Source: Hyphomicrobiales bacterium (GTDB taxonomy: Bacteria; Pseudomonadota; Alphaproteobacteria; Rhizobiales; Rhizobiaceae). From it: a stretch of 64,000 bases of DNA. Where the stretch lies: the NCBI GenBank assembly GCA_900469965.1, contig UBZP01000026.1, forward strand, positions 1 to 64,000, written 5' to 3'. Positions 8,803-34,666 of the stretch are shown here, in pieces. Position 1 is the first letter of the stretch. Each line of letters starts with the position of its first letter. The notes under the pieces were generated by a model. That model was not told where the DNA came from. It saw only the letters and a program-made list of their open reading frames with translations, and did no database searches. The translations under genes were made by a program, and so were the position numbers.

Positions 8803-9194
8803 GATTGGACGACCACTTTCGCTTCGCGAAACAGCATGGTGAAAGACAGGACCCGCTCGACGGTAAAATCGCCGAGATGGCCCGCCGGCCGATAGTCGAC
8901 ATCGATCGCAAGACCGAGATGGCCGAGCCGGATCTGCTCGACACTTCCTTGCGGGATGATGCGCCGGACGCGGAATCGCGGCTCCCAGAGATCGATCGCC
9001 GTGGCGATGATCTGCTGGAAGGCGGCAAACAGCGCCGGCGTCACGAGGCGGCCGAGCAATTCGAGTATCCCGCCGCCGAACTCCCGCCGCATCACCCGGT
9101 CGCCGATCAGTGTGGTCAGGATCACTTCGACGCCCTGATGGGCAGACGCCAGGTTCTCGATCGGCTTGAAGGTCAGACGATCAATCCCCGTCAT
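8799..9194 (-). CDS. Baseplate wedge protein W (GPW/gp25 family)
   Basis: A 131-residue lysozyme-like-fold baseplate protein. It contains the GPW/gp25 core: IENLASAHQGVEVILTTLIG followed by DRVMRREFGGGILELL, the family's 'l.TppGer.mrp.fG..l' region, although the usual TPxGER is changed to TLIGDRV. It starts 14 bases inside the previous small gene and overlaps gpJ by 4 bases. In contractile tails this protein is the innermost wedge subunit that binds gpJ. Confidence 0.88.
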   Translation of the reverse strand: MTGIDRLTFKPIENLASAHQGVEVILTTLIGDRVMRREFGGGILELLGRLVTPALFAAFQQIIATAIDLWEPRFRVRRIIPQGSVEQIRLGHLGLAIDVDYRPAGHLGDFTVERVLSFTMLFREAKVVVQS

Positions 9195-9381
9195 GGCCCC
9201 TCGCTTTCCGCCGCCGTCTCGTAGTAGCGACCACCTCGACGCGGCGGATGCGCCCGTGCGCGAGGTCGAACGCCGCCTCTGCCGCCGTCAGCAGCACCGG
9301 ACTTCCGGTCACAGGGGCGCCATTGACATGCGTCACGCCCGCGCAAACCGCGTAGGGTGTCCGTTCGGCCTGCTGTTCCAT
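9181..9381 (-). CDS. Small conserved-position protein between baseplate V and W
   Basis: A 66-residue protein whose ATG touches the stop of the gpV gene and whose end runs 14 bases into the W gene, so it is tightly coupled in the baseplate operon. It is Ala/Arg-rich with a very basic tail (TTRRRRKARGHDGD). No known family is recognised. Small proteins occupy the V-W gap in several alphaproteobacterial P2-like phages, so it is probably translated. Confidence 0.6.
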   Translation of the reverse strand: MEQQAERTPYAVCAGVTHVNGAPVTGSPVLLTAAEAAFDLAHGRIRRVEVVATTRRRRKARGHDGD

Positions 9382-9902
9382 CAGTGCGGTCCATCCGTGT
9401 CTGCGCCGCCCGGCAGGATGCCGCCGTGCACATGCGTCGATCCAATGTTCTTGCCGTCGTGCCTGACCTCGCCGCCGCTGATCGTCACGCCGGCCGCCGA
9501 TACCTCGAAGGTGACATCGCCCACTGCGACCCGGAGCGTGCCACCGGCGATCGACAGTCGCACGCCGGCGTCCTCGAAGACGTTCGCGTCCATGTCGTCG
9601 TTGGGCGACGGATAGGCGTCCGAATAACCGCCGCGGATCAGGAAGCCCTGGCGCGGATCGCCGGTCGGATTGACGACGCCGACCACCTGACCCTTTTTGA
9701 GCGGGACGCTGGACTTGCCGGTCTCCGGATGCGGATACCAGGGCGACAGGAAGGGACCGTTCGGCCCCTCCCCGAGCTTGAGGCGGTAACCCTTGACGGG
9801 GTCGATCTGTTCGACCGGCCCCATCTTCATCGCCTTGCCGAAGGCCGTCTTCAGCATCTGCAGGTCGGTGACGATGCCGACGAGAACATCCTCAATCATC
9901 AT
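9381..9902 (-). CDS. Baseplate assembly protein V (spike)
   Basis: A 173-residue spike protein of the gpV/gp45 type. The OB-fold segment KKGQVVGVVNPTGDPRQGFL and the beta-helical C-terminal region (VRLSIAGGTLRVAVGD...VTISGG) are followed by THVHGGILPGGADTDGP, which matches the 'tHtH.v..g....p' metal-binding tip motif of phage spikes. It heads the baseplate block and overlaps the upstream gene by 11 bases. Confidence 0.9.
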   Translation of the reverse strand: MMIEDVLVGIVTDLQMLKTAFGKAMKMGPVEQIDPVKGYRLKLGEGPNGPFLSPWYPHPETGKSSVPLKKGQVVGVVNPTGDPRQGFLIRGGYSDAYPSPNDDMDANVFEDAGVRLSIAGGTLRVAVGDVTFEVSAAGVTISGGEVRHDGKNIGSTHVHGGILPGGADTDGPH

Positions 9903-14674: not shown

Positions 14675-16275
14675 CAGGACCGTGCCTTCCTCTGCTCATC
14701 GTCTTCGGCGCCGGCAGACTGCCCGCCGCCGACATTGCGAACGAACGGCGACGGCATGCCGGCATCCACATAGCGACGATGTTCGAGCAGCCGCTGCTCG
14801 AACACCTCGTCCGGGTCGAGCCCCTGCTCGGCACATTCATGCGCAAGGGTCGTCGTGCCGTTGGCGATCCTCTCCGACGAGGCCTTGGCCGCCTTGCCGT
14901 CGTCGGCGGTCGGCTTGGCCGGACCCTGCCACAGCGCCCAGCTGACCCGCTCGCGATTGGCCGCAAAGGCCTCATAGCCGCCCTTGAACGGGATCCGGCC
15001 CTCGCCGATCTCCTCGTCGAGCCAGCTCTCGTAGGGCACCTGGTAGTGCGGTGCGGCGATCCTCTCGCGCCGGCGCAGGACGACCGGCCACAGCGCCGAC
15101 GTCTCCATCCGGACCGACGAATAGGTCGCGTCCGAATAGTCCATCGTCAGGCCGCCATAGGTGGTGCCTAGCGCCCGCGCCATGTCGCGCGACAGCGCCT
15201 TGGCAAACGGCAGGTATTCGCCGCCCGGCATCTTCGCCGTCTCGAACGCCAGCTTTTCGCCCGGCGCCAGGTGCGAGACCGTTGGGTCACCGCTGACGTT
15301 AATGGTCGACTCCGCCGCCTTGTCCAGCCGGGCGCTCAAGTAGTCGGCAAAGTCGCCTTCGAGCCCGCCTTCGTCCAGCGCCGCCATCGCCTCGAACGCA
15401 TCCTTGCTCGGCGCGTCGCTCGTCAGCGTGATCGCGAACACCGTCTGCAACACCGCCATCTGCAGCGTCGCATCGTCGAGAATCTCGTGCTGAAGATGCC
15501 GGCGGAAGGCCGGCGCCAGCAACGAGATGCCGCGCACGTCGGTCGCGTCCATCGGGTCGAAGGCGTGCAGGATGAGCGCCCTGCCCTCACGATCCCGGGC
15601 GGCATAGTCACGGGTCACGTCGAGCCCGGTTTCGCGCGTGCGAAACCGGTAGTGCGTCGCCCGTCCGTTCTCGTCATGGAAAATGCCCTGGAACAGGCCC
15701 TCCAGTTCCCGCGTCTCGCGTACCAGGCGCGACGGCGGCACCATCAGCATCTTCGTGCCGGAGGTGATGCCGTAGCGCCGCCGCTGGATCCGGTCCATGT
15801 AGGACAGGACGCCGGTGCTCTCGCCGAAAGCGATCCACCAGCGCAACCCGATATCGGCCATCTGCGGAACCGTCAGCTTGCCGCGCAGGTCGCACTCGGC
15901 GGCGTTCCACGCCCACATTTTCCACCGCTTCTTGACGATGGCGATGAACTCGGCCCGCTCCTGGTCGTCGTAGCCGAGGCCGGTGAGGTCAGGCTGCGGG
16001 TTGAGCGTCAGTTCCGTGCCGACCGTGTCGGCCAGGATCTGGTCGCAAGCGCCTTTCAGGCGACCCGAGTTCTGGATCAGGTCCATGGCGAGTGCTGCGG
16101 TGCGATCCCACACCCGCCGGACCTCGTCGCGATGCTCGCGAAGATAGGCCGGACGGGCGGCGATCACGCCGGAACGGGTGTCGCGCAGATAGGCGCGCGG
16201 GCGCGGCTGTTCGCCGTCCTGAACGGCGCGGCCCGCGGGCACCCTGATCCTCGGCTTCGTCAACGGTTCTTCCAT
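14674..16275 (-). CDS. Portal protein (lambda gpB family)
   Basis: A 533-residue portal subunit. The ATG at 16275 (MEEPLTKPRI) overlaps the terminase gene by 16 bases and is preferred over the longer open frame, whose N-terminus would be antisense-like Arg-rich sequence. Family features are WMWAWNAAECDLRG (in parts), FGESTGVLSYMDR, HAFDPMDATDVRGISLLAPA and the stem region DYLSARLDKAAESTI. The dodecameric ring would be the packaging gate. Confidence 0.92.
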   Translation of the reverse strand: MEEPLTKPRIRVPAGRAVQDGEQPRPRAYLRDTRSGVIAARPAYLREHRDEVRRVWDRTAALAMDLIQNSGRLKGACDQILADTVGTELTLNPQPDLTGLGYDDQERAEFIAIVKKRWKMWAWNAAECDLRGKLTVPQMADIGLRWWIAFGESTGVLSYMDRIQRRRYGITSGTKMLMVPPSRLVRETRELEGLFQGIFHDENGRATHYRFRTRETGLDVTRDYAARDREGRALILHAFDPMDATDVRGISLLAPAFRRHLQHEILDDATLQMAVLQTVFAITLTSDAPSKDAFEAMAALDEGGLEGDFADYLSARLDKAAESTINVSGDPTVSHLAPGEKLAFETAKMPGGEYLPFAKALSRDMARALGTTYGGLTMDYSDATYSSVRMETSALWPVVLRRRERIAAPHYQVPYESWLDEEIGEGRIPFKGGYEAFAANRERVSWALWQGPAKPTADDGKAAKASSERIANGTTTLAHECAEQGLDPDEVFEQRLLEHRRYVDAGMPSPFVRNVGGGQSAGAEDDEQRKARS

Positions 16276-18353
16276 CGGTTCGGTTTCTTTTCCCGCGGGG
16301 GCCGCTTCGGCTTGCCCGCAAACGGCCCTTCTTCGGCAACGCTGAACAGGTCCGGCTCTGCCGGTCTGCCGTGGACGGAAAGCAAAAGATCCGCCCAACG
16401 CTCGGCATTGAGACGGCGCTGGTGCTTCAGCTGCCACGCCAGCGCAAACGCATAGACCGTGGCGTCGAACCAGTCGTTCGCCCGGCCAATGACCTTCTTC
16501 CAGACGCGGCCCGCTTTGGGGTTGATCAGCCGGCGCGCCCGTCGGTTGATCGTTTCCCGCGCCTCTTCCTCGGCATCGACCAGCCGCTCGGCGGTCATCT
16601 CCTCGGCAAAGCCCTGGTCGCAAAGGTCGGCTGCGATGTGCAGCGTGCCGCGCGGCCAGCTGCCCTTTTCGTCCGGCCCCTGCACCAGGTTGGCGAGACC
16701 GGCGGTCACCGCCGTCTTGATGTCGTAGTTGCCAACCGGATAGAGCATCACCTTGGCGACGATTCGCTTGCGGTGATCGCGTATATCCTTCTTCGCTGGC
16801 GTACCGAGCCAGGGAAGGCCGGGCTGGTGGCGACCGTCGAGCGCGAAGACGTTCGGGCGACCGGCACAGAAGCGATAGACGCGGTCGGTGGCGAAACCGG
16901 AGTCGACGCCGGAAAGGTCAATGCCCTTCTCGCCACCACCGGCGGTCGGATACGTCCGCATCAAGGCATCGGCGAGTGCGATCCACGGTTCGTCCGTCTG
17001 TTCCGGCGCGCCCTCGAAGACCTCGCGGTCAATGAGGTAGCACTGCTCACCGGGCCCGACCGCATAGACGACCCATTTGATGCCGTAGCTCTGTACGTCG
17101 GCGGCGGACACGATCAGGCCGGCCTCGGCCGGGATCCTGCGCGCCGGGCGCAGCGCGCCCTTGGCCGCATCGACGATCTTCTCCCACTCGACGGTCAGCC
17201 CGCCGGGATCGTATGGCTCGGCCAGATCCTGCTGGTAGAACACCCGCAGCTTCGTCGTGTCGCCCTGCGCAGTTTGCCACCGGTCCCAAATGTCGGACCA
17301 GCGTTCACGCGGCGCATACGCGGCCCAGAGATGATAGCTCGGCTGCCAGTCGCGGCATCGGCCTTCGCAGGGCAGGCACTGATAGCGGGCGATCTCACCG
17401 GCCGGAATGACCAGCGGGATTGCCGGCTCTCCGTCTCGAACACGACGGGCGATCCAGACGCCCCGGTGATCCATCTCGCCCTTGTGGCCGTCCAGGATGA
17501 CACTGTCGCAGGACAGGCACCGGAAATGCACCGGAAGCCCCTGCAGCTCGTCGGCTCCGCGCATCTGGTCGAAGACGAACGGCTGGAACATCTCGCAGTG
17601 CGGACACGGCACATAGCGATAGCGCTGGTCACCGGCGTCGAAGTCGGCGCTGATGGCGCATTCACCTGCGATACCGGGCGTCGACCCCTGCCATTCCTTG
17701 GCGAAATCGCCATACATCTTCTGCCGAGCCCGAGCCTGGTCGCGCGGGCTGCCGCGACCATCCACGTCCTTCGGATAACCGGTCACCTCGTCCATGGCGA
17801 GATACTTGATCGACACCATCTGCAGGCCCTTGGAAGAGCCTGCATTGACGACCTGACAGAACCCGCCGGCATAGCGCTTGAACGACGTCGTCGAGCCCGC
17901 CTCGTCGCGGCTGTTGACCGGCATCACCTTGTGGCTGATACGCGGGCTCGCCTCGATCGTCGGCTGCAGCTTGATCCGGTTGAACTTCGTCGCCTCTTCC
18001 AGCGTCGGCAACACGATCATCATCGAGCCGGGCGCCTGATCGACGATGAAGCAGAACCAATTCTCGATCGCCGTCGACTTGCCGAGCTGGGCTGCCCACC
18101 GGCAGCTGACACGCCGCGCCGGATGATCCGGATGCAGGCAGTCCTGCGGCTCGCGCAGATAGGGAACGCGATCGGTCCGAAAGGGACCGGGCCAGGGCGA
18201 ACCGGATTCCGACGAAACGATGCGATGACGGTCGGCGTGCTCGCTGATCGTCAGTTCTTCGACCGGCCGGCTCGCAGCCTCAAGCCCGCGGAAGAGCGAG
18301 ACCGAACCACGGGGCAGCCGGGGAAACCGCAGCCGCACATCATGGATCGTCAT
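16260..18353 (-). CDS. Terminase large subunit (lambda gpA / GpA family)
   Basis: A 697-residue packaging motor. The ATPase region shows RWAAQLGKSTAIENW as a Walker-A-like loop (Q-LGKS), YLAMDEVTGYPKDVDGRG as the Walker-B/DE region, and a zinc-like cluster CPHCEMFQPF...FRCLSCDSV typical of gpA. The C-terminal nuclease domain includes SAADVQSYGIKWVVYAVG and GEKGIDLSGVDSGF. It overlaps the small-subunit gene by 4 bases. The gpA type implies cos-style cutting. Confidence 0.93.
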   Translation of the reverse strand: MTIHDVRLRFPRLPRGSVSLFRGLEAASRPVEELTISEHADRHRIVSSESGSPWPGPFRTDRVPYLREPQDCLHPDHPARRVSCRWAAQLGKSTAIENWFCFIVDQAPGSMMIVLPTLEEATKFNRIKLQPTIEASPRISHKVMPVNSRDEAGSTTSFKRYAGGFCQVVNAGSSKGLQMVSIKYLAMDEVTGYPKDVDGRGSPRDQARARQKMYGDFAKEWQGSTPGIAGECAISADFDAGDQRYRYVPCPHCEMFQPFVFDQMRGADELQGLPVHFRCLSCDSVILDGHKGEMDHRGVWIARRVRDGEPAIPLVIPAGEIARYQCLPCEGRCRDWQPSYHLWAAYAPRERWSDIWDRWQTAQGDTTKLRVFYQQDLAEPYDPGGLTVEWEKIVDAAKGALRPARRIPAEAGLIVSAADVQSYGIKWVVYAVGPGEQCYLIDREVFEGAPEQTDEPWIALADALMRTYPTAGGGEKGIDLSGVDSGFATDRVYRFCAGRPNVFALDGRHQPGLPWLGTPAKKDIRDHRKRIVAKVMLYPVGNYDIKTAVTAGLANLVQGPDEKGSWPRGTLHIAADLCDQGFAEEMTAERLVDAEEEARETINRRARRLINPKAGRVWKKVIGRANDWFDATVYAFALAWQLKHQRRLNAERWADLLLSVHGRPAEPDLFSVAEEGPFAGKPKRPPREKKPNRWKNR

Positions 18354-18976
18354 TGCAGCGCCATCCCTTCCTTGGTGTCGGCCAGACCGCCCTCGCCCGC
18401 TTCCTCTTCGCGCCGCGCAGCGTCCAGCCGCATCAGGATCTCGCGATTGAAGACGCCAAGGCCGATCTTGATGAAGCTCTTCAGCGCCAGCCGAATGGTG
18501 CGTTCGTCCCAGCCATATTTGAGCGAGAGCGAGGCGGCCTCACTTTCGACCGCCCGCTCGAAGGCGCTCTGCATCAGCACGACGGCATCACGCCCGGCCT
18601 GGTCGACTTCGGCAACCGGCGTCAGTTCCTTGCGGCGCTCGGCGAGATCCATCTCGCGCAGTTCCGCATCGGCCTGCGCTTTGCGCGCCGCGCCATCCGA
18701 CTGGCTCCCGGCGAAGCGCGGCGCCGGTGCCCCGACCCGACCGGCCGCGGTCGGCGCCGGGTTCGGTTGCGCCGCAATCGGCCGCAGCCGCACATTCGCC
18801 TGGCGATGTTCGAGCAGCGCTCCGAATTCGACGAGGTTCGACTTGCCGGACGGGCGCAGTGCCAGTGCCTCGCTGTGCTGCTTCAGGTAGCGCGACAGCG
18901 TCGACCGGTCGACGGCATCGCCGCGCGCGGTCAGCCGCGCCGCGGCTTCCGTAATTGAAATCCAGTCTTCTTCCAT
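18350..18976 (-). CDS. Terminase small subunit-like DNA-binding protein
   Basis: A 208-residue protein with an N-terminal winged-helix/HTH segment (WISITEAAARLTARGDAVDR, then STLSRYLKQHSEALAL), as in lambda Nu1, followed by a Pro/Ala linker and a helical C-terminal half (AERRKELTPVAEVDQAGRDA). It directly precedes and overlaps the large subunit, as small subunits do. It should recognise the packaging site. Confidence 0.82.
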   Translation of the reverse strand: MEEDWISITEAAARLTARGDAVDRSTLSRYLKQHSEALALRPSGKSNLVEFGALLEHRQANVRLRPIAAQPNPAPTAAGRVGAPAPRFAGSQSDGAARKAQADAELREMDLAERRKELTPVAEVDQAGRDAVVLMQSAFERAVESEAASLSLKYGWDERTIRLALKSFIKIGLGVFNREILMRLDAARREEEAGEGGLADTKEGMALQ

Positions 18977-20172: not shown

Positions 20173-20245
20173 CTGACCTTTTTCAGTGTGCTTACTCTAT
20201 GTCAACCAACTGGCGCATTTCAAGGCTCGAAAAAACCAGACATTA

Positions 20246-21025
20246 TCACGCATTTACAAGGAGTTGCCCGCTTTCTACCCGCCGCAGCCATGGGTGCCGA
20301 TCAGGGCGAAACGGCAAGAGAACGTGATTTGCCAGCCGGGGCGCGAGCGATTCGTGCAGCAATCCGAGCGCGTCCTGCCAGAGCTGCCAGTCGAGGCGCG
20401 CGAGAATGGCGCCGCGAACGGACGTGGCAAGTTCATACTTGCGATACGCTCCCCGCATCGGCCGGCGCCTGGCCGGGTCGCGACCATCGGCCTCGTATTC
20501 ATAGATGCGCCCGAATGCATCCTTGGCCTTGCGCTTGACGAACCAGCGGGGCTTTCCGTTCATGGACACGAGCTGGGTGAACGGTTCTTCCGCCTCCCAG
20601 TCAGGGCCATGGCCCAATACCGCGGACGAGAGCACAAGAGTGACGACGTGATCGCCATTGACGAGGTCGCCCCGCAACCGCTGTTCCTCGACCACGCGGG
20701 CCACCTCCGCCGCCACCAGCCCATGATCGTCGCGCCATTCGGGAAACGGCCGCCATTCCGACGAAACTTCAAAGCCGCCTCGTGAGGCCAGCGCCATCAC
20801 GGCATCGGCGGCAGCCACCGCGTCCGCATGCGGTTCATCCCGGTCAGGAGCCTGTCCGAGCGGCGCACTCCCGCCGTCGATGCGGGTGCCAAGCATGCCG
20901 ACACGCTCGATCACCGCCCAGGCGGAGGCGCCATAGCCGAGCTTTTCCGTTTCTTCAGGCGGGCGGCCTACCAGTTCGACCGCAAAAGCCCAGGTCAACA
21001 AACGCTCGATGCTCACTTTTCTCAT
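20246..21025 (-). CDS. Hypothetical early phage protein
   Basis: A 259-residue protein at the end of the replication block. The N-terminus (MRKVSIERLLTWAFAVELV) and an aromatic, Arg-rich C-terminal third (RKYELATSVRGAILARLDWQ) are seen. It lies downstream of the iteron-like array. The same kind of protein, beginning 'V.IE.LL.WAY..EL', occurs before the terminator region in rhizobial prophages. No catalytic motif was found; function unknown. Confidence 0.62.
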   Translation of the reverse strand: MRKVSIERLLTWAFAVELVGRPPEETEKLGYGASAWAVIERVGMLGTRIDGGSAPLGQAPDRDEPHADAVAAADAVMALASRGGFEVSSEWRPFPEWRDDHGLVAAEVARVVEEQRLRGDLVNGDHVVTLVLSSAVLGHGPDWEAEEPFTQLVSMNGKPRWFVKRKAKDAFGRIYEYEADGRDPARRRPMRGAYRKYELATSVRGAILARLDWQLWQDALGLLHESLAPRLANHVLLPFRPDRHPWLRRVESGQLLVNA

Positions 21026-21050
21026 GATTTACCCTCTTTTGCGATGGATT

Positions 21051-21364
21051 GGACAGCAAGGACAGCAACCATCTCAAAAATGGACAGATAGATGGTGACC
21101 TTGGACAGATAAAACGCAATAAAAACAATGCTTGGACAGGTAGGACAGATAATCTCAGGGTTTATGTGATGCGAGGTCCAGCTTTTCCTTCATACCTTCC
21201 GCACCAAACCCTCAAAGAACACACGTGCGCGCGCATCATATAAACCCGGAAAATTGCTGTCCTTGCTGTCCTTGCTGTACAGGCATTTGTTTTCATTGCG
21301 ATATTTCTCCGCGTTGCATGTCTCTTGCTGTCCATTTGCTGTCCGTTTGCTGTCCTTGCTGTCC
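21051..21364. repeat. Iteron-like GGACAG array, candidate phage replication origin
   Basis: Six GGACAG copies lie on the plus strand (starting 21051, 21060, 21082, 21103, 21134 and 21143). Six more are in the opposite orientation as CTGTCC (starting 21257, 21266, 21328, 21339, 21350 and 21359), plus one variant CTGTAC at 21275. Spacing is mostly 9-11 or about 20 bases. An A-rich stretch (21109-21130) lies inside the first cluster. The array fills the only long gap (21026-21447) in the replication genes, just downstream of a P4-type primase/helicase. The P4 alpha protein binds short iterons of similar size (GGTGAACAG type), so origin function is likely but unproven. Confidence 0.7.
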
Positions 21365-21447
21365 ACCCACACCCTTGGAGAGGGGCCAGAAGGACGCATT
21401 CGGAGGCTGCTGCCCTTGCAGTCCGACGAAGGGTCCGGGTGCTCCGG

Positions 21448-23262
21448 TCATGGATAGGTCTCCGGCAGAGGCTCATCATCGGAGTAGCGGTAGGACGGCT
21501 GGCTGTCGGGATGGCTGCTCGGCCGCCGGAACTCGTCGCGAATGCGAATGCCCAGGTATAACGTGCCGTTTGAGCGGGCGCGGCGAAACTGGTGCATGAG
21601 GTCGTCCGGGCCGCGCCAGCTCTTGTGCGTCTGGTCGGGCAATCGCCGCGTAAACGTCTGCTGCTTGAATTCCGACAAGCCTTCCCGCTTGGCATAGTTC
21701 GTATAGGCGATGAACAGGTCTTCCGGAGTGCACCGATCCTCGTCCTTGCCGGTTATGTGGCAGGCGTTGCGTAGGAAGGCGCCGATCGGGTCGCTCTCCT
21801 CACGGTATTCCGCGGTCGCGGCCGAGACGCCGGCGGGCACCTGCAGGCCGTGCTCGAGATATTCCAGCGCCCCTCGCACCATCCAGGCGAAGATGCCCGC
21901 CTTCTCCACCCGCAGCTTCCGTGGCAGATCGCGGTCCACCTCCTCTTCGGCGATCTGGATTTCGAACGGTACCAAGTGCACGCGTCGCCAGATACCGTCG
22001 GAATCGTCATGGATGATCGGCTTGTGGTTGCCCGACAGAATGATCTTGAACTGCGGCACCAGCTCGAAGAAGTCCTGATGCAGGCGCCGCACGGCGATCA
22101 CCTCGCCGCCGGTCAGGGCCTTGATCAGCGCATCCTTGAGACGAACGCCCATTTCCGGCTCCGAAGCCGCGACCAGCCGGGCGCCCGGCAGGCGCGCAAG
22201 GTCGGGCGTCGCCTCGGCGCCGGCCCGCTTGCTGTCGCCGGCGAAGCTGTCGATCGACATGGAGACGGCATAGTCGCCGAGGATCTCGACCATCAGGTCG
22301 ACAAAGGTGGATTTGCCGTTCCGGCCCGCGCCATAGAAGAACAGCAGGCATTGCTCGACCGTCAGCCCCAGCAGGCAATAGCCCATGTAGCGTTGCAGGA
22401 AGTGACGGATATCGACGTTCGGCATCACCTTTTGCAGGAATTTCGCAAACAGGGGTGCCGCGGCCTTGGCGTCGAAATCCACCTGCGCAAGCTTCGAGAT
22501 GAAATCGGACGCCCTATGCCGATCGAGGCGGATTGCCCATTTGCGCGAACCGTCCACCTCGGCGCAGTAGAAACGCAATGTGCCGTTCCGGCAATTGATG
22601 GCGTGAAGATCGCAATTGAGGTCGTTCACCTCTCGCGACACGTATGGGATGGCCTCGGTGAGCATGTTGTTGATCTTCGAGGTCCCGGCCGAGGACTTGG
22701 CATGCCCATGCCGAGAGGACATCCGGCCGGCGCGATCCTTGTTGACGACCAGCATGGCGTCAACGGCCGCCTGCAAGGCGTCATGCTTCTCGATTTCCTC
22801 GGCAGTCCATTTCTTGTCCGGCTTGCCGAGTTCCTTCAGCTCCTCGATGGCAAGCTTTCCCGCCTCGATTTTCGCCCGTTCGTCGTCGTTGCAGTCCAGC
22901 ATCACCGCTTCGTCGTCGATGAACTCCGCCGTCAGGTGCGCCAGCCGCCGCACGACCGCACCCGAGGCGTCCTCGAGCCAGCGGCCGTCGGTATAGCCGT
23001 GCCAGCCGACGTTCGTCACATGCAGGACCTGGTCACCGTAGCGTTCGATGAAGCGCCTGGCATTGCCGATATCGGTTTCGGGCTCACGCGAGCAATGTTC
23101 GAGGATCTCCTCGGCTGACAGCGCGACGGACTCGTCTTCAGGTTCCGGCTCTGCAACCGTCAGAGGGTCCGGGTTCTGCTGGTAGTCACCGCGCTGCATC
23201 TGCGCCTGAGCGATGATGCGAGCGACGGCTTCTGGAATGCCGCTCTTTGGCTTGTCTGACAC
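21448..23262 (-). CDS. P4-family primase/helicase (D5-like, SF3)
   Basis: A 604-residue replication protein. Walker A is in LLFFYGAGRNGKSTFVDL (about residue 315), followed by the SF3 B motif region and VPQFKIILSGNHKPII, the sensor-like Asn typical of SF3 C motif. The N-terminal part matches the D5_N region (VSREVNDLNCDLHAINCRNG). The C-terminal HTH-like region (SEFKQQTFTRRLPDQ) is the usual P4/D5 tail. With the Toprim gene upstream it gives a complete helicase-primase. It overlaps none and starts 1 base after its neighbour. Confidence 0.92.
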   Translation of the reverse strand: MSDKPKSGIPEAVARIIAQAQMQRGDYQQNPDPLTVAEPEPEDESVALSAEEILEHCSREPETDIGNARRFIERYGDQVLHVTNVGWHGYTDGRWLEDASGAVVRRLAHLTAEFIDDEAVMLDCNDDERAKIEAGKLAIEELKELGKPDKKWTAEEIEKHDALQAAVDAMLVVNKDRAGRMSSRHGHAKSSAGTSKINNMLTEAIPYVSREVNDLNCDLHAINCRNGTLRFYCAEVDGSRKWAIRLDRHRASDFISKLAQVDFDAKAAAPLFAKFLQKVMPNVDIRHFLQRYMGYCLLGLTVEQCLLFFYGAGRNGKSTFVDLMVEILGDYAVSMSIDSFAGDSKRAGAEATPDLARLPGARLVAASEPEMGVRLKDALIKALTGGEVIAVRRLHQDFFELVPQFKIILSGNHKPIIHDDSDGIWRRVHLVPFEIQIAEEEVDRDLPRKLRVEKAGIFAWMVRGALEYLEHGLQVPAGVSAATAEYREESDPIGAFLRNACHITGKDEDRCTPEDLFIAYTNYAKREGLSEFKQQTFTRRLPDQTHKSWRGPDDLMHQFRRARSNGTLYLGIRIRDEFRRPSSHPDSQPSYRYSDDEPLPETYP

Positions 23263-24510
23263 TTAGGCAGGCTCCTTTTGCATGGCATGGACGATGGCGC
23301 TGGCGAAGTCCTCGCCCTCCGGCGGCCACCAGATGTCGATCGTCCGGCCCTCGCGCGTGAGCCGGGTTTCGGCACGCGCCATGGCAGCGGCGGTCTTGAC
23401 GAACTCGCTGTCGCCGTCGGCGAGCAGGACGAGTGTGGTGACGTGGTCGGCGATCCGGACGGCATCGTCCGGTCCCTGGTCGGGCTTTGGGACCGGCCCC
23501 TGGATGCGTACCGGCTTCAACACACCCTTGGCGTCCGCCTTTTTGAGGGTCGGGTGGCTGAAGGCGGATCGCTGATCAGCCGGACCGGCAAGATTGCCGA
23601 GGTCGCCGGTCGCGAAATAGAAGGTATCGGCGCGGAAGCCCTCGGCGCCGGCGACCGCCAGCACCGTCTCGATCCCCTCGCCGCCCAACCAGCGCAGCGC
23701 CGCCATCTCGCCCAGAAGCGGAATGAGCGAGCCCTTCTTCGCGCCGCGCATTTTCTTTGTCGGCAGGGGCTTGCCCGTGTCGTCGAGGCCAAGGTCGGGC
23801 CGGAATTTCGGCGCATGCCGCAGATCGATCCATGTCACATGGCAGCCGGTGACACGGCCGGCGAGATCCACGAACGGCGCAACCATCGCCGGGCCGGCAT
23901 AGGGCGAGACCGGCCGGCCGAAGTCATCCTCCCCGTGCCAGTAGCTTTGCGAGCTGGAAAAGCGGACGCTCTCGAAGACGCTTGGCGGCACGTCGAAACC
24001 GGTGCGCAGGCAAAGATAGCGCGCGACTTCGGATCCGCGTGCATCCCCGGCATTGAAGAAAATGCCCCTCGCCTGCTTTGCCTCGCGCTCGCGAAAGCTG
24101 TTCTGGTCGGCCGCTCGCTTTGCCGCCGCCTGCTCGCTTCGGCGACGGCGCTCGGCGAGACGCTCCAGGCGTGCGGCGCGCTCGTCGTCGCTCTCACGCT
24201 CTCCGCCTTGCGGGATGGCTTCGCCCAGCACCGCGGCACATGCCTCGAGGAAGCCGGTCCGGTCGCGGGTATCGAGTTCCAGCACATGCGCCATAAGCCC
24301 GATGCCGTCGCGGCCACCAATAGCACCGCGGCAATTCCATGCCGGTAGCGCCAGATTGATCGAAAACCGGTCCTTGCCCCCGCAGGCAGGGCACGCCCCG
24401 GTATAGCCCTTGCGGGTCAGTTTCAACCCGGCAGCCGTTGCCGCCTCAGCGATGCTGACGCGGCGCGCGCGGTCGATGAACTCGCCGATTTCATCTGCCG
24501 CGTCGCTCAT
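23263..24510 (-). CDS. Zinc-finger/Toprim primase protein
   Basis: A 415-residue protein read from ATG 24510 (MSDAADEIGEF). The N-terminus carries a CHC2-like zinc site: GACPACGGKDRFSIN followed by WNCRG. A Toprim-like glutamate motif is in WLGGEGIETVLAVAG at about residue 245. TLVLLADGDSEF is the second acidic strand (D-x-D). The middle is a charged helix. It partners the P4-type helicase encoded next. The longer frame to 24558 would add a hydrophobic stretch with no support. Confidence 0.9.
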   Translation of the reverse strand: MSDAADEIGEFIDRARRVSIAEAATAAGLKLTRKGYTGACPACGGKDRFSINLALPAWNCRGAIGGRDGIGLMAHVLELDTRDRTGFLEACAAVLGEAIPQGGERESDDERAARLERLAERRRRSEQAAAKRAADQNSFREREAKQARGIFFNAGDARGSEVARYLCLRTGFDVPPSVFESVRFSSSQSYWHGEDDFGRPVSPYAGPAMVAPFVDLAGRVTGCHVTWIDLRHAPKFRPDLGLDDTGKPLPTKKMRGAKKGSLIPLLGEMAALRWLGGEGIETVLAVAGAEGFRADTFYFATGDLGNLAGPADQRSAFSHPTLKKADAKGVLKPVRIQGPVPKPDQGPDDAVRIADHVTTLVLLADGDSEFVKTAAAMARAETRLTREGRTIDIWWPPEGEDFASAIVHAMQKEPA

Positions 24511-24615
24511 CGGCCCCCCCCGGAAAATAACGAGAAATGCGGACAAAAACGCCCGCACTTACTTGCCGTGCGGACAAAAATGTCCGATAACGTATTCATT
24601 GAAACGGAGATCGAC

Positions 24616-24813
24616 ATGGACAAGCGGGATCGCTTCATTGCCGAACTGAGAGACGAAGCCAAAGCGGCGGGCCTCTCCTTCCGGGTCAACAAATCGAAGG
24701 GCAAAGGGGGCCATGCAACAGTGTTTGTAGGAGACCGCTTCACCACCCTCCCCAGCCGGGAGATAGACCCGAAGACGGCGGCGAAGATCAGGAAGGGGTT
24801 GGGGCTCAAGTGA
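24616..24813 (+). CDS. hicA: HicA-type mRNA interferase toxin
   Basis: A 65-residue protein (MDKRDRFIAELRDEAKAAGL...). The dsRBD-like fold is recognisable by the catalytic histidine in GKGGHATVFVG and the C-terminal helix DPKTAAKIRKGLGL. Length (about 60-80) is normal. Alternative starts at 24568 and 24580 would add up to 16 residues. The partner hicB follows after 62 bases. The pair is on the opposite strand to the phage early operon, so it is probably a cargo toxin-antitoxin module. Confidence 0.85.
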   Translation: MDKRDRFIAELRDEAKAAGLSFRVNKSKGKGGHATVFVGDRFTTLPSREIDPKTAAKIRKGLGLK

Positions 24814-24875
24814 GCCCCTTCCCCGCGTTGTCCATGGAAGGAAGGCCAATCACGGCCAGAATGGAGAAGAGAGCG

Positions 24876-25307
24876 ATGTTGAAGACCTACGCCTATGCGG
24901 CCCGCTTCGAGCCGACCGAGAAGCCCGGCGGTTTCACCGTCACCTTCGACGACGTGCCCGAAGCGATCACCGAGGGCGATGATATGGCAGAAGCCCGCGC
25001 TATGGCGGCCGACGCGCTCGGCGTGGCGCTGTTGACCTATCTTGAACTGGGCAGGCCATTGCCGGATGCTGTGACTGAAGGCGAGACGATCACGCCGGAG
25101 CCGGAGACGGCCGCAAAGATCGCCGTCATCGAGACGTTCAAGGCCAGCGGTCTTTCCGGCCGCGAGCTGGCGCGCCGCCTTGGCAAGGACGAAAAGGAGG
25201 TGCGCCGGGTGCTGGATCCGAACCACGCCACGAAACTGCCCGTTCTGTCTTCGGCGCTGTCCGCCATGGGCAAGCGCCTGGTGGTGGGGCTGGAGGCGGC
25301 GGAGTAG
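24876..25307 (+). CDS. hicB: HicB-family antitoxin
   Basis: A 143-residue antitoxin. It opens with MLKTYAYAARFEPTEKPGGF and carries the partial RNase H-like HicB fold: VTFDDVPEAITEGDDMAEAR followed by AADALGVALLTYLELGR. The C-terminus is an HTH (FKASGLSGRELARRLGKDEK) used for operator binding. The ATG at 24876 is chosen because GAGAAGAGAG lies just upstream. Order toxin-antitoxin is normal for hicAB. Confidence 0.88.
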   Translation: MLKTYAYAARFEPTEKPGGFTVTFDDVPEAITEGDDMAEARAMAADALGVALLTYLELGRPLPDAVTEGETITPEPETAAKIAVIETFKASGLSGRELARRLGKDEKEVRRVLDPNHATKLPVLSSALSAMGKRLVVGLEAAE

Positions 25308-25340: not shown

Positions 25341-25586
25341 ATGGACCCCAAACGATGGGATAAGGCGGTGGAAATCGAACTCGGCAGGACCGGGCATATC
25401 CATCGTGTGACCAGCACTCAGGAGGCTGCCGAAATCCTGCTGGCGAAATGGCCGATCAAAGGCGGGAGGATGCACCTCGCCGCCCGAATTGCCTGCCTGG
25501 ATGTTCTCGAAGGCGTGCAGCCCCCCGAATATGCGCGGGAGGCGTTTCTCGCCGCCGCCGATGAGGCGGGGATGTTCGTGAGATGA
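25341..25586 (+). CDS. DUF982 family protein, paralogue 1
   Basis: An 81-residue protein of the rhizobial DUF982 type: start MDPKRWDKAVEIELGRTGHI, then 'VTSTQEAAEILLAKWP' and 'REAFLAAADEAGMFVR'. The Ala-rich helix pair and the 'P.EYAR.AF..AA.EA' end are the family hallmarks. Function unknown. It is 33 bases after hicB, with AAGAAGGGA as ribosome site. It is the first of three copies in tandem. Confidence 0.78.
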   Translation: MDPKRWDKAVEIELGRTGHIHRVTSTQEAAEILLAKWPIKGGRMHLAARIACLDVLEGVQPPEYAREAFLAAADEAGMFVR

Positions 25587-25597
25587 GGCCTTCATCG

Positions 25598-25703
25598 TCA
25601 TTCCGCCGCCTCCGCAAAGACGGATATCGGCCGCCCCTGCGCGCGCTCCAGCGCATGGGTTGCAACCGGATTGACCCAGAGAACTTCGACACGCTCGCGG
25701 GCG
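25598..25703 (-). pseudogene. Possible 3' relic of a DNA methyltransferase gene
   Basis: On the minus strand this stretch encodes ARERVEVLWVNPVATHALE and GRPISVFAEAAE before a stop. The pattern 'RERVEVLW.NP' looks like the tail of some rhizobial phage DNA methyltransferases, but I cannot confirm it. It lies opposite the spacer between two DUF982 genes, where the plus strand codes nothing convincing. Together with the truncated methyltransferase start at 26.9 kb it may mark where the cassette entered. Confidence 0.3.
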
Positions 25704-25790
25704 CCGTCGCTTTGCCCTCCGCCCGCATGGAACCACAGCCTGGACCGCCCGTTTTTGGGCAGCGGCACGTGTGCGGAAGGGAGGCCCGGC

Positions 25791-26039
25791 ATGGACGCGA
25801 AACTGTGGAACAAGCCCGTTGAGGTCGAGCTCGGCAGAATCGGCCACTTCCGCGCGATTACGAGCACGCGCGAGGCGGCCGAGTGCCTCCTGACGCGATG
25901 GCCGGAATCGGCCGGTCCAGCCCATGCCGCCGCGCGCCGCGCCTGCCTTGCCGTGCTCGAGGGGAAAGCAGAGCCGGAGGTTGCCCGTCAGGCCTTCATC
26001 GATGCGGCCGAAGAATCGGGGATTTTCGTACGTTCCTAG
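25791..26039 (+). CDS. DUF982 family protein, paralogue 2
   Basis: An 82-residue protein read from ATG 25791 (MDAKLWNKPVEVELGRIGHF), preceded by GGAAGGGAGG. It aligns end to end with the copies before and after: 'ITSTREAAECLLTRWP', 'AHAAARRACLAVLEGK', 'VARQAFIDAAEESGIFVRS'. The frame is open further upstream, but the homology with its paralogues begins at this methionine. Function unknown. Confidence 0.8.
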   Translation: MDAKLWNKPVEVELGRIGHFRAITSTREAAECLLTRWPESAGPAHAAARRACLAVLEGKAEPEVARQAFIDAAEESGIFVRS

Positions 26040-26104
26040 TAAGACGGGAACATGACGGTTCATGATGCCGAGTTGCTTGATCACTCGACTGGTCGCATGA
26101 CGGC

Positions 26105-26938
26105 TCACAGCACGGCCCTCCGCAGGGAACTAACGCGATGGACGCGAAACGCTGGGACAAGCCAGTGACGGTGGAGGCCGAAAAGGTCGGAATGCTGCGC
26201 AGCATTGCAAGCACCATGGAAGCGGCGGAATTTCTTCTCCTGCATTGGCCGCTTGACTGGACCGGTCCCGCACACGTTCGTGCGCGACATGCCTGCATCC
26301 AGGTTCTGGGGGGAAAAAGCCCGCCCGAGCACGCCCGCGAGGCCTTCATCAATGCCTGCGAAGAGGCGGAGATATTCATTCAGTCGGAGTGAGGCCATCA
26401 GGCAGGCCACCTCCCCGCCGCGCAGGCGCGTGATGTTGTCGAGTATCGCCTGGGCCCGCTCCTGGGCGTCGAAATCGCGCCGTGCGATCGCCAGCAGCTT
26501 GCTGGTATGCACGACCGGGCCGTATCGAGCGGTTTCGATCGCACCCGCGCGCACGGCGAGCGCACGCTTGGACTGCGTATCGAAGTGAACCCAGCTCGCG
26601 TTCCGGTGCTTGCCGAACGAAAGCGTCTGGTGCCCCTGAATCCACTTGCGCTGCACCCCGATCCGATCGGCCATCGCCAGCAGCTCCGCGTCACTGTCGG
26701 CCCACATGTGGCACATGATCATGGAGCCGAAGGCCGCTTTCATGTCGTCGACATAGACCGCCATCACGCCGCCTTCCTGGTTGATGGCATAGTCCGGCGA
26801 GCGCCCGAGCGCCATCTCGATCCCGGTCGAGGCCCCGCCGCCGCCGGCGAAGCTGTCGATGATGATCGGCTCGCCGATTGACGGCGCTGCAAGGTTGCCC
26901 GCAAGAATGGTGCCGGCGAAGAGAGTTTCGCGAAACAT
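26105..26938 (-). CDS. Fused remnant: C5-methyltransferase start joined to a DUF4031 protein
   Basis: A 277-residue frame in three parts. Residues 1-54 carry the start of a phage C5-cytosine methyltransferase (IIIDSFAGGGGASTGIEMAL, motif I, then SPDYAINQ). Residue 59 is Met 26764, where a DUF4031 domain begins (MAVYVDDMKAAFGSMIMCHM ... LSFGKHRNASWVHFD). The codons before that Met (GAA GGC GGC GTG) look like the former ribosome site of a separate DUF4031 gene, so a deletion probably removed most of the methyltransferase. From about residue 180 the frame continues through DNA that is antisense to the third DUF982 gene, so the natural stop also seems lost. The methyltransferase part cannot be active. 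Confidence 0.65.
   Translation of the reverse strand: MFRETLFAGTILAGNLAAPSIGEPIIIDSFAGGGGASTGIEMALGRSPDYAINQEGGVMAVYVDDMKAAFGSMIMCHMWADSDAELLAMADRIGVQRKWIQGHQTLSFGKHRNASWVHFDTQSKRALAVRAGAIETARYGPVVHTSKLLAIARRDFDAQERAQAILDNITRLRGGEVACLMASLRLNEYLRLFAGIDEGLAGVLGRAFSPQNLDAGMSRTNVCGTGPVKRPMQEKKFRRFHGACNAAQHSDLFGLHRHWLVPAFRVHRVSSLRRAVL
26138..26392 (+). CDS. DUF982 family protein, paralogue 3
   Basis: An 84-residue copy of the same family: MDAKRWDKPVTVEAEKVGML, 'IASTMEAAEFLLLHWP', 'ARHACIQVLGGKSPPEHARE', 'EEAEIFIQSE'. It is opposite the extended end of the DUF4031 frame, overlapping it fully. Codon-by-codon similarity to the other two copies shows that the plus strand is the real coding strand here. 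Function unknown. Confidence 0.78.
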   Translation: MDAKRWDKPVTVEAEKVGMLRSIASTMEAAEFLLLHWPLDWTGPAHVRARHACIQVLGGKSPPEHAREAFINACEEAEIFIQSE

Positions 26939-32723: not shown

Positions 32724-33170
32724 CTAGGCTGAAAAGCGCGTACTTTCTTCCTCCAAGAGGAAGGCTTCGAGTCGCTTCGTTAGACAATCTAAGTCCCTAG
32801 TCTGGCACTCCCAGATCACAAGAACCTTCCATCCAAGTGCCTCCAGCGCCACTTGACTTGATTCGTCTCGCCGCACGTTATCGTCGAATTTCTTCTGCCA
32901 GTATTCGCCACGAGTCTTCGGTGTTGTCGTCCCTGCGCATCCCTTATGTCGATGCCAGAAACATCCATGAACGAAAATGACCTTTCTATGCCGAGAAAGG
33001 ACAAGATCGGGTGTACCGGGTAACCCTCGGACGTGGAGCCTATATCGGAACCCTAACCTGTGGGTCGCGTGCCGCACCAGCATTTCAGGCCTGCTATCAG
33101 TCGCCTTTACCTTGGCCATCAAGCGACGGCGATGGTCAGGTACATCAGCAAATAAATCGCGCGTCTTCAT
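32724..33170 (-). CDS. vsr: Very short patch repair (Vsr) endonuclease
   Basis: A 148-residue endonuclease with a full Vsr set: KVKATDSRPEMLVRHATHRL, then GFRYRLHVRGLPGTPDLVLS, VIFVHGCFWHRHKGC and a C-terminal ALGWKVLVIWECQTRD. The catalytic Asp lies in GTPDLV, and the Cys/His residues are at the HGCFWHRHKGC zinc site. It nicks next to T in T:G mismatches left by 5-methylcytosine deamination and is normally paired with a C5 methyltransferase. Here that partner lies 5.8 kb away on the other strand. Its start overlaps the adenine methyltransferase stop by 4 bases. Confidence 0.93.
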   Translation of the reverse strand: MKTRDLFADVPDHRRRLMAKVKATDSRPEMLVRHATHRLGFRYRLHVRGLPGTPDLVLSRHRKVIFVHGCFWHRHKGCAGTTTPKTRGEYWQKKFDDNVRRDESSQVALEALGWKVLVIWECQTRDLDCLTKRLEAFLLEEESTRFSA

Positions 33171-34666
33171 GCAAGGGATGTAGCGCCTGGTGCAAATCCG
33201 AACAGACCTTTGAAAGTCTCTTCGAACTCTTGGAAGTCGTCACTACTCAGACCTTCACGAACATCGTGGGACAGCTGGCTCCACTGCGGCAGAGGCGTTC
33301 TCAGCAGGAACCGCTTGTAGAAGCGCATCCAACCGTGTTTGAGAGCCGGAGCTTCAGCTTTCGCAGTTACCTCAAGGAGACCCCCATTCAGGACACGTTG
33401 GAGCACATCTGTGGGCCACTCCCCTGACCAGATCGCGTAGAGGGAATGCGCCGGGATTGCCTGCGTTCGATCTATGGTGACGAAAGGCTTATTCGATAGT
33501 TCCGGCATCAGAAGCTTCGGACCGGTTGACCATAAAGCTGGGACCGCATCGATCGTCCGCCAATATTGGTCCTTGTCCCTAAATTGGCTTCTTCTACTGA
33601 GCGCTTCCCGCCGTTTGCTGACCCACGTTTTGAAGCCGGGCCAATCCGATGGATCAATCAGAACGCCCCTACGATCATATGGCACGACGACCCGTAACCG
33701 AGCGGTATCGACAGCCGAACCGATCAGATCTTTTCTATCGAGGAAGGGGCGAACAAGTTCATCCTCCACTTCAGCGATCTCATCAGGATCAAGTATGAAT
33801 GTCCGTCCAGCACCGAGCGCTGGACCAACGCGAACAATGCAGCCGGCCTCGTGGAGACTTCCATGCCGTGCGAGGAGCTCACGCAGCATCGCCTGGGCTT
33901 CTTGTCTCCTGTTTGATGATAGGTGATGAATTGGTTTGCCGGCTGGCGTCAGCAAGACGATCGCGCTGTAAGCGCCGACCGTTTTCATGAATGGATCCGA
34001 TGGGCGCTCGTCGGCCACTGTGATGGTCCAACCTCGCGATTTTGTATCTTGGAGAAAGCCATCTCCGTACTGCGCGAACATCCATCTATCGCTGGTCAAC
34101 GCCGCGATCGAACCGCCGTCGCTTATCCATTCTAGCATCTTATTCAGGAATGCAACCGACAGATCGCCGCGCGTACCCACGGCCGGCAGGGTTTCCCGAT
34201 AGAGGCTTGCCAGGACGGCAGGAAGGTTCTTCCAGCGAACGTAGGGCGGATTTGCCGCAACGTGAGTGGCGCGCTCGGGTTTCTCCAACAGAAAATCTCG
34301 CTCGCCCACCCACTTCAAGACAAGTTGGTCAGCGTGCTCCGGAGGAATGCCTTCCTCGATCAGCAAATTTCGCAGTAGCTTTCGCACGATCGCCGCGGCC
34401 CCTGGATGGAGTTCGAAACTCCTGATCCGCGGCTCAAGATCGCCCAATGAAGGTGTTCGACCGTTAGAGCGGAAAGAATGGAGAAGGCGACGGACTCCTT
34501 CCATAAGGATGGACCCTTCCCCGGCACAGGGCTCAAGGAGAGTCGCCTGCGAAAGATCCGCGTTTGAGGTCCAGCCAATCAAATCGAGCAATCGAGCTGC
34601 AGTTGGGGCGGACGTGTATATCGCGCAACGATCGTGCAATTGCTCTATCGCTGCGTGCAGTTCCAT
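33167..34666 (-). CDS. N6-adenine DNA methyltransferase (TaqI/Eco57I type)
   Basis: A 499-residue methyltransferase. The SAM-binding motif I is LLEPCAGEGSILMEGVRRLL and the catalytic motif IV is AANPPYVRW, characteristic of N6-adenine enzymes. WISDGGSIAALTSDRWMFAQ is motif V-VI-like. The C-terminal half (from about residue 270) should hold the target-recognition domain; no nuclease motif is visible, so it is more likely a modification than a IIG enzyme. The gene diverges from the GHKL protein across 146 bases and is coupled to vsr. Confidence 0.85.
   Translation of the reverse strand: MELHAAIEQLHDRCAIYTSAPTAARLLDLIGWTSNADLSQATLLEPCAGEGSILMEGVRRLLHSFRSNGRTPSLGDLEPRIRSFELHPGAAAIVRKLLRNLLIEEGIPPEHADQLVLKWVGERDFLLEKPERATHVAANPPYVRWKNLPAVLASLYRETLPAVGTRGDLSVAFLNKMLEWISDGGSIAALTSDRWMFAQYGDGFLQDTKSRGWTITVADERPSDPFMKTVGAYSAIVLLTPAGKPIHHLSSNRRQEAQAMLRELLARHGSLHEAGCIVRVGPALGAGRTFILDPDEIAEVEDELVRPFLDRKDLIGSAVDTARLRVVVPYDRRGVLIDPSDWPGFKTWVSKRREALSRRSQFRDKDQYWRTIDAVPALWSTGPKLLMPELSNKPFVTIDRTQAIPAHSLYAIWSGEWPTDVLQRVLNGGLLEVTAKAEAPALKHGWMRFYKRFLLRTPLPQWSQLSHDVREGLSSDDFQEFEETFKGLFGFAPGATSLA

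Follow-up and report, generated by a model that had tools for sequence, protein, structure and literature searches.

The locus and its genes

The stretch of DNA analyzed here (the window) is 64,000 nucleotides long, positions 1 to 64,000 of contig UBZP01000026.1 from a Hyphomicrobiales bacterium of the Rhizobiaceae (assembly GCA_900469965.1). Three adjoining minus-strand genes at 20246-24558 form a replication block, and an earlier reading made from the letters alone (the sequence-only reading) was right that this block has only one gap, the intergenic stretch 21026-21447. It holds an array of short repeats (iterons) in two facing clusters, and the features in and around it are the following.

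20246-21025, minus strand: 259-aa protein, phrog_9306 (function not assigned); its start lies 25 nt beyond the array
21051-21151, plus strand: iteron cluster 1, six GGACAGNWA units starting at 21051, 21060, 21082, 21103, 21134 and 21143
21152-21253, no strand: central 102 bp between the clusters, 49% GC
21158-21173 and 21232-21247: arms of an imperfect inverted repeat in the centre, with one mismatch, a G.T pair
21254-21364, minus strand: iteron cluster 2, six units (TWNCTGTCC on the plus strand) starting at 21254, 21263, 21325, 21336, 21347 and 21356
21272-21280, minus strand: degenerate third tandem copy in cluster 2
21367-21376, minus strand: second conserved motif, AAGGGTNNGG, at the helicase-side edge of the array
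21429-21438, plus strand: opposed copy of AAGGGTNNGG, close to the helicase stop codon
21448-23262, minus strand: 604-aa D5/P4-type helicase (family name primase_Cterm), the proposed iteron reader; TIGR01613, PF08706 (D5_N), PF19263
21538-21789, minus strand: predicted C-terminal winged-helix domain, residues 492-575 of the helicase (AlphaFold2, mean pLDDT 83)
21556-21588, minus strand: wing hairpin, residues 559-569 (FRRARSNGTLY), of which 561, 563, 565 and 566 covary with the iteron core
23263-24558, minus strand: 431-aa primase with Zn-ribbon and Toprim domains; PF08273, PF23639, PF13362 (this last match below its curated cut-off), phrog_510 DNA primase

The 604-aa protein scores 241.1 bits against TIGR01613 (cut-off 108.7) and 61.1 bits against PF08706 (curated cut-off 22.4). 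Its predicted fold, a D5-like AAA+ fold with a C-terminal winged helix, aligns over 399 residues (within residues 47-580) with the SaPI5 primase-helicase 7om0_D, at a Z-score of 25.8 and an rmsd of 4.5; other D5-family helicases rank as high as SaPI5, for instance 9ivf with a Z-score of 27.0. AlphaFold2 gives pLDDT values of 82-92 in ten-residue blocks from 491 to 580. We call residues 492-575 a winged helix because of the order of helices and strands and because of the SaPI5 match; a sequence search of the last 104 residues of the helicase against solved structures returned nothing meaningful (best E-value 0.23). The sequence-only reading had put a P4-type primase beside the array. What lies there is of the P4 type, but it is the helicase half (D5_N, AAA+, winged helix), and the primase domains sit in the 431-aa neighbor.

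The predicted model of the 259-aa protein, with a pLDDT of 88, has no match among solved structures (best Foldseek E-value 1.3, best VIA-align Z-score 2.3). This protein is a possible replication partner.

The window also encodes phage families for the small and large terminase subunits, a head maturation protease, a neck protein and a repressor, and for this reason we take the element to be a full-size temperate phage. Having structural-gene families of its own, it differs from a PICI, a small satellite island that uses the structural genes of a helper phage.

Several other loci in the window can be mentioned. At 24568-25307, adjoining the replication genes, an 81-aa ORF with no Pfam match lies beside a HicB-like antitoxin ORF (PF15919, just under its curated cut-off), possibly a toxin-antitoxin pair. 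Three consecutive ORFs with DUF982 domains lie on the plus strand at 25341-26392. At 32724-34666, the gene for a Vsr mismatch endonuclease adjoins that for an Eco57I-type methylase, which could be a restriction-modification remnant or cargo.

The iteron array against its background

Twelve exact copies of the core GGACAG lie at 21051-21364, six on the plus strand (at the unit starts given above) and then six on the minus strand, starting at 21257, 21266, 21328, 21339, 21350 and 21359. At least twelve copies of a 6-base core, in two opposed clusters around about 100 bases, is what had been claimed, and it is what we count; the inner cores of the two clusters have 108 bp between them. An excess of the motif over background had been proposed as a check, and we find it at both scales: dinucleotide-preserving shuffles of the 422-bp gap contain on average 0.225 copies, and at most 3 in 2000 draws, versus the 12 observed, and the whole window has 45 copies versus 30.3 ± 5.2 expected. 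With the two strands merged, the best other 6-mer reaches nine copies in any 314-base stretch of the window, and only GGACAG gets to twelve. The core extends to the 9-bp unit GGACAGNWA in all 12 array copies; of the window's other 33 copies only two do so, and both are solitary, so that there is no second cluster of units in the window. Copies with one mismatch are found on the minus strand, GTACAG at 21275-21280 and GGACTG at 21419-21424.

The cores follow each other at 9, 22, 21, 31 and 9 bp in one cluster, and at 9, 62, 11, 11 and 9 bp in the other. Thus, of the regular 9-11-base spacing on one face of the helix that had been proposed, the main pitch of 9 bp stands, but this pitch is not a helical turn, spacings here range from 9 to 62 bp, and it is only some outer sites that look phased, by about two turns.

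The central region is lower in GC than the window (49% versus 64%), yet it is not AT-rich. Its fold has a z-score of -3.2 against 60 shuffles. We considered a conserved central hairpin and rejected it, as the z-scores of -3.2 in the window, -5.0 in the relative L127 and -7.0 in L188 are set against +1.7 in L070. An RNA element and a terminator were also rejected as readings of the array: Rfam has no match in 20200-21600 up to an E-value of 1, and no terminator is found in 20950-21500.

Conservation of the array in relatives

The set of relatives has 110 distinct helicases among the matches listed, the window's included, where distinct means not identical across the last 150 residues, so that many entries are close kin. 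At least 583 IMG/VR relatives were among the 600 stretches listed, of which 80 loci were kept. We say that a locus has an array if, at any point downstream in the DNA examined, a G....G core with NWA after it recurs exactly at least four times within 430 bases, and there are six or more units when one mismatch is allowed.

By this rule, 82 of the 109 distinct relatives have an array downstream of the helicase (83 of 110 with the window), as do 40 of the 43 relatives that, among six queries, are best matched by the window protein (41 of 44 with the window). None of 108 loci has an array upstream of the helicase, and neither does any of 550 shuffled downstream regions. The sequence-only reading had named absence from related prophages with the same primase as evidence that would count against it; the array is present in the 82, and by the rule it is absent from the other 27.

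The arrays have a common architecture. In 76 arrays, the window's included, the main same-strand pitch is 9 bp (270 of 489 neighbors) and a lesser peak lies at 20-21 bp (91 of 489); a plus unit faces a minus unit over 64-119 bp in 70 of the 76. The orientation of the outer units differs between arrays of the GGACAG type and those of the GGGACG type. The second motif, AAGGGTNNGG, has 74 copies in 33.4 kb of array regions versus 42 in 704 kb elsewhere, and it is present in 57 of the 76 loci (window included, and many of them close kin). In 16 of 83 cases, the distance from the helicase stop codon to the start of the array exceeds 400 nt; in phage RR1-A, ten GGACAG units lie 1885-2181 nt past the stop codon. 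Three of the helicases with displaced arrays (L001, L111 and L207) have wings like those that go with the same core where the array is adjacent. In 183 of the 212 sequences searched there is a relative of the 259-aa gene, and in the four loci compared (L001, L064, L108 and L109) it begins just beyond the array, whether the array is displaced or not.

Within the genus, the helicase is present in two of seven genomes, the window's own and one other, whose copy is 91% identical. Rhizobium rhizolycopersici also has a 91% match, and its C-terminal 300 residues are the same as those of that other copy. The array looks like the conserved cis element of a D5/P4-type phage helicase.

More distant phages offer some observations as well. 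The cyanophages Pan4 (L214) and Sc-Yong805-1 (L215) have helicases about 37% identical, and by eye, with no control, we see arrays of GGGAAG/GGGAGG iterons about 30-380 nt past the helicase stop codon, with a palindrome-like stretch at their center. Bacillus phage phi105 (L216) has six GTAACA repeats 43-208 nt past the stop codon of its P4-type helicase, a possible origin.

Covariation of the iteron core with the helicase wing

The core is not the same in all relatives, and its changes can be followed on a tree. The tree uses residues 61-505 of 75 of the 83 helicases that pass the array rule. The eight left out are L118, L207, L043, L044, L037 and L028, with a stop inside the automatically read frame, L198, with an odd reading, and L034, which was removed by name with near relatives; the frame of L034 is whole, and its core and wing agree with those of its near relatives. 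Ten core types are found among the 75 helicases, and they need 15 changes on the tree, versus 28.7 for shuffled labels.

Four residues at the wing tip of the predicted winged helix (561, 563, 565 and 566) covary with the core. The wing RxRSNGT is present in all 10 GGACAG loci and in no other among the 75, and KxKSGTT in 26 of the 45 GGGACG loci plus 3 GGGGCG loci. In one or two loci each, RSTGT goes with GAACAG, KMHSNGT with GGAGAG, KARSNGA with GGACGG and RMKSGGT with GGGCAG; five of the ten core types are each represented by one wing in no more than two loci. Glycine at residue 566 with A at core position 3, and arginine at residue 563 with C at core position 4, both give counts of 13/0/0/55 and a phi of 1.00 in the 68 loci (of 75) used for the comparison with the 259-aa protein, a selection that raised the phi of the wing, as the exceptions, L119 and L188, are among the seven loci omitted. 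With all 75 loci, each pair has a phi of 0.92. The best column of the 259-aa protein has a phi of 0.64 with the core in the same 68 loci.

How much of this could be shared ancestry? For four core labels (A at position 3, C at position 4, A at position 5, and C at position 5), the three best-associated of the columns scanned all belong to the wing. When traits with a frequency and a number of changes near those observed are simulated on the tree, the three best columns fall within five residues in 2, 0, 1 and 7 of 1000 draws, respectively. The maximum phi alone is a strong signal for C at position 4 and for A at position 5 (reached in 0 of 300 simulations each), a modest one for A at position 3 (12 of 300), and a weak one for C at position 5 (37 of 300). 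A paired test on the tree has 1-3 pairs only, and no power.

We also predicted each core from its nearest neighbor, using different parts of the protein. At the strictest limit (body identity of donors below 75%), 47.2 of 62 cores are predicted correctly from the 11-residue wing, and 31 from the 345-residue body. Other segments give 33.5 (residues 476-528), 34 (529-558) and 40 (the tail, 571-604), the 259-aa protein gives 33, and the best of 200 random 11-residue windows gives 42. A constant guess of GGGACG also gives 42 of 62, so that the margin of the wing is confined to the other cores. Of the 20 cores other than GGGACG, 13.7 are right with the wing, 6 with the body, 7 with the tail and 6 with the 259-aa protein, with other segments at 7 or less, and random windows at 8.5 or less. 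At looser limits the parts come together: with donors below 95%, the wing, tail, body and 259-aa protein give 53.1, 53.0, 51.0 and 51.0 of 64; below 85%, the wing and body give 49.9 and 47.0 of 64, and the body leads for the 22 cores that are not GGGACG (14.0 versus 13.2).

The code is not one-to-one. KxKSGTT goes with both GGGACG and GGGGCG, GGGAGG goes with several wings, and L027 has an RxRSNGT wing yet its repeats are GTACAG/ACACAG, with only ACAG in common with the prediction. Two comparisons between kin are informative. L052 (GAACAG) and L001 (GGACAG) are identical at 339 of 345 body positions and at 41 of 47 positions in 529-575, and wing residues 565 and 568 of L052 differ from both L001 and L012, which is also of the GGACAG type. 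L030 and L064, which differ in their iterons, are identical at 408 of 415 body positions, at 35 of 53 in 476-528, and at 27 of 47 in 529-575.

The planned hold-out sample, from genomes of the order and class, has no qualifying case: none of its 35 new distinct helicases, which share 32-45% identity with the best-matching of six queries, passes the array rule in about 1.5 kb or less downstream. Two of them, L218 and L219, each carry five copies of GGGAGG, the core that their wing predicts. Later viral scans, outside the plan, contributed 3 more helicases, of which L290 passes the rule, with the wing predicting its core right and the body wrong, and L255 and L260 fail it. Searches of the genus and relatives gave four further loci; of the three examined, two were already in the set, and the other is a new helicase, L296, which has eight copies of GGGAAG and shares its wing with L038. 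Of eight plasmid matches, the three examined (L298-L300) have no such array. This hold-out of the wing-to-core prediction is too small to count as a test.

What the array may be

We read the array as an origin opened by the phage's own helicase because of its parallels with P4 alpha and crr, and because of the fold alignment with the D5 family, SaPI5 included. It is very probably the origin, or an essential initiator-binding part of the origin, of a temperate phage in a Rhizobiaceae genome, and would work in the way described for P4 crr and PICI origins. The 604-aa AAA+ helicase would bind the 9-bp GGACAGNWA iterons via its C-terminal winged helix, assemble at the two facing sets, and open the approximately 100 bp between them, where the neighboring Zn-ribbon/Toprim primase would lay primers. 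The central region may thus be the melting site, and two oppositely loaded oligomers may give two-way replication. What had been proposed from the letters, a likely phage origin whose reader is the C-terminal domain of the 604-residue protein, is still the best-supported reading, with an array that is conserved (82 of 109) and that covaries with the tip of that domain.

Part of the evidence can be explained in other ways. It is improbable, in our estimation, that the array has no part in initiation and is an operator of the 259-aa gene, to which the protein it encodes or some other regulator binds. The position would suit an operator: the array is just upstream of the 259-aa gene start, on its promoter side, even where other genes separate it from the helicase (in L001 the last unit ends around 2190, and the match to the 259-aa gene starts at 2229, counted from the helicase stop codon), and two promoter-like sites, one per strand, overlap the iterons, versus 0.2 in shuffles. 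But the core tracks the helicase wing better than any column of the 259-aa protein (a phi of 1.00 versus 0.64 in the 68 loci), the 259-aa protein predicts 33 of 62 cores to the wing's 47.2 at the strictest limit, and 7 of the 75 array loci have no relative of the 259-aa gene at an E-value of 1e-3 (more than 3 kb beyond the array was examined in four of them, and less than 300 bases in three). Iteron-like arrays also occur in partition, incompatibility and packaging sites. We give very little credence to the array being one of those, given its place between the helicase and the 259-aa gene in relatives and its covariation with a helicase domain; as for packaging, the terminase genes lie away from the array, at 16260-18976.

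A different possibility keeps the array as an origin, and is compatible with that half of our explanation, but has the 3′ end of the helicase gene and the neighboring array recombine jointly, so that wing and iteron are correlated without the wing being the reader. L030 and L064 look like this, with near-identical bodies, different iterons and the whole end changed, and so does the tail, which predicts as well as the wing at loose donor limits. Yet at the strictest limit the tail is worse than the wing, 40 versus 47.2 of 62 and 7 versus 13.7 of 20, although it is nearer to the array, and residues 529-558 are worse too, at 34 of 62. Moreover, in 16 loci the array is not adjacent to the helicase, and in L052, whose body is nearly identical to that of L001, wing residues 565 and 568 are those that set it apart from both L001 and L012. 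We find joint recombination without a reading wing unlikely.

Returning to the origin opened by its own helicase, the fact that the letters of the iteron tag change with the wing-tip residues suggests that the wing of the helicase reads its own starting point. The constant bases (G1, G6 and NWA) would then be left to the recognition helix, and the wing would read those that vary. We lean, by a small margin, toward a more general proposal: that full-size temperate phages of alphaproteobacteria have diverging helicase-origin pairs, in which the bases that vary in a 9-bp iteron are set by some four wing residues, the evolving element of specificity is the wing and not the recognition helix, and wing and origin switch together.

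To our knowledge, few phage origins have been mapped outside model phages. If the proposal is true, the origin can be predicted from the helicase protein alone, which makes it possible to locate origins by rule in many alphaproteobacterial prophages, and provides a set of natural, pairwise different helicase-origin pairs. It would also be a directly testable answer to the question of how self-loading D5-type helicases choose their DNA, and it would extend the PICI-type origin to whole phages. The switching of wing and origin could perhaps be an escape from cross-replication by rival phages and satellites.

Comparison with known systems

Our literature searches found no published description of this array family. 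One of the closest systems is phage P4, in which, according to the part of PMC4234260 that we draw on, the alpha protein binds the repeats of the P4 origin via a winged-helix domain. P4 has a helicase of the same family, crr lies directly downstream of alpha, and the type 1 repeats of crr are in both orientations, some of them at a 9-bp pitch. On the alpha strand, the first unit at that pitch, GTGAACAGT, contains GAACAG, the core of L052. The likeness to P4 that the sequence-only reading had drawn is good for the comparable short repeats of crr, but not for the P4 origin proper: besides crr, P4 has an ori far away from it, annotated at 9086-9809, in which repeats of types 1 and 2 are present, and the window has no counterpart. 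And P4 alpha is one 777-aa protein, whereas in the window helicase and primase are two.

The geminivirus Rep and its iterons, as presented in sections of PMC12548392, are alike in concept only: position and pattern are conserved, and the sequence differs between close relatives. Rep is an unrelated rolling-circle initiator, and we claim no homology. The same sections report that iteron identity is not essential for geminivirus replication, a caution for the present reading.

In SCCmec, Cch2 is also a D5-type helicase, and the portion of PMC7581432 used here describes how its isolated C-terminal domain binds repeats just downstream of the gene; those are three AAGTG iterons, versus twelve units in two opposed sets in the window. 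The Rep-ori of SaPIs and PICIs, in the portions of PMC7581432 and PMC6092414 we rely on, has these features in common with the window: a helicase with a C-terminal DNA-binding domain (predicted in our case), an origin directly 3′ of its gene, and two iteron sets flanking a central region. The differences are that our array is in a phage with terminase and head genes, and that its center is not AT-rich. In 2018, the PICI-type origin was said to occur in no other known bacterial replicon (PMC6092414, in the portion used). The full-size-phage setting and the proposed wing-to-iteron code are new. What the array in the window has in common with both PICI origins and P4 crr is its place directly 3′ of the helicase gene, and its two sets of short iterons around a center.
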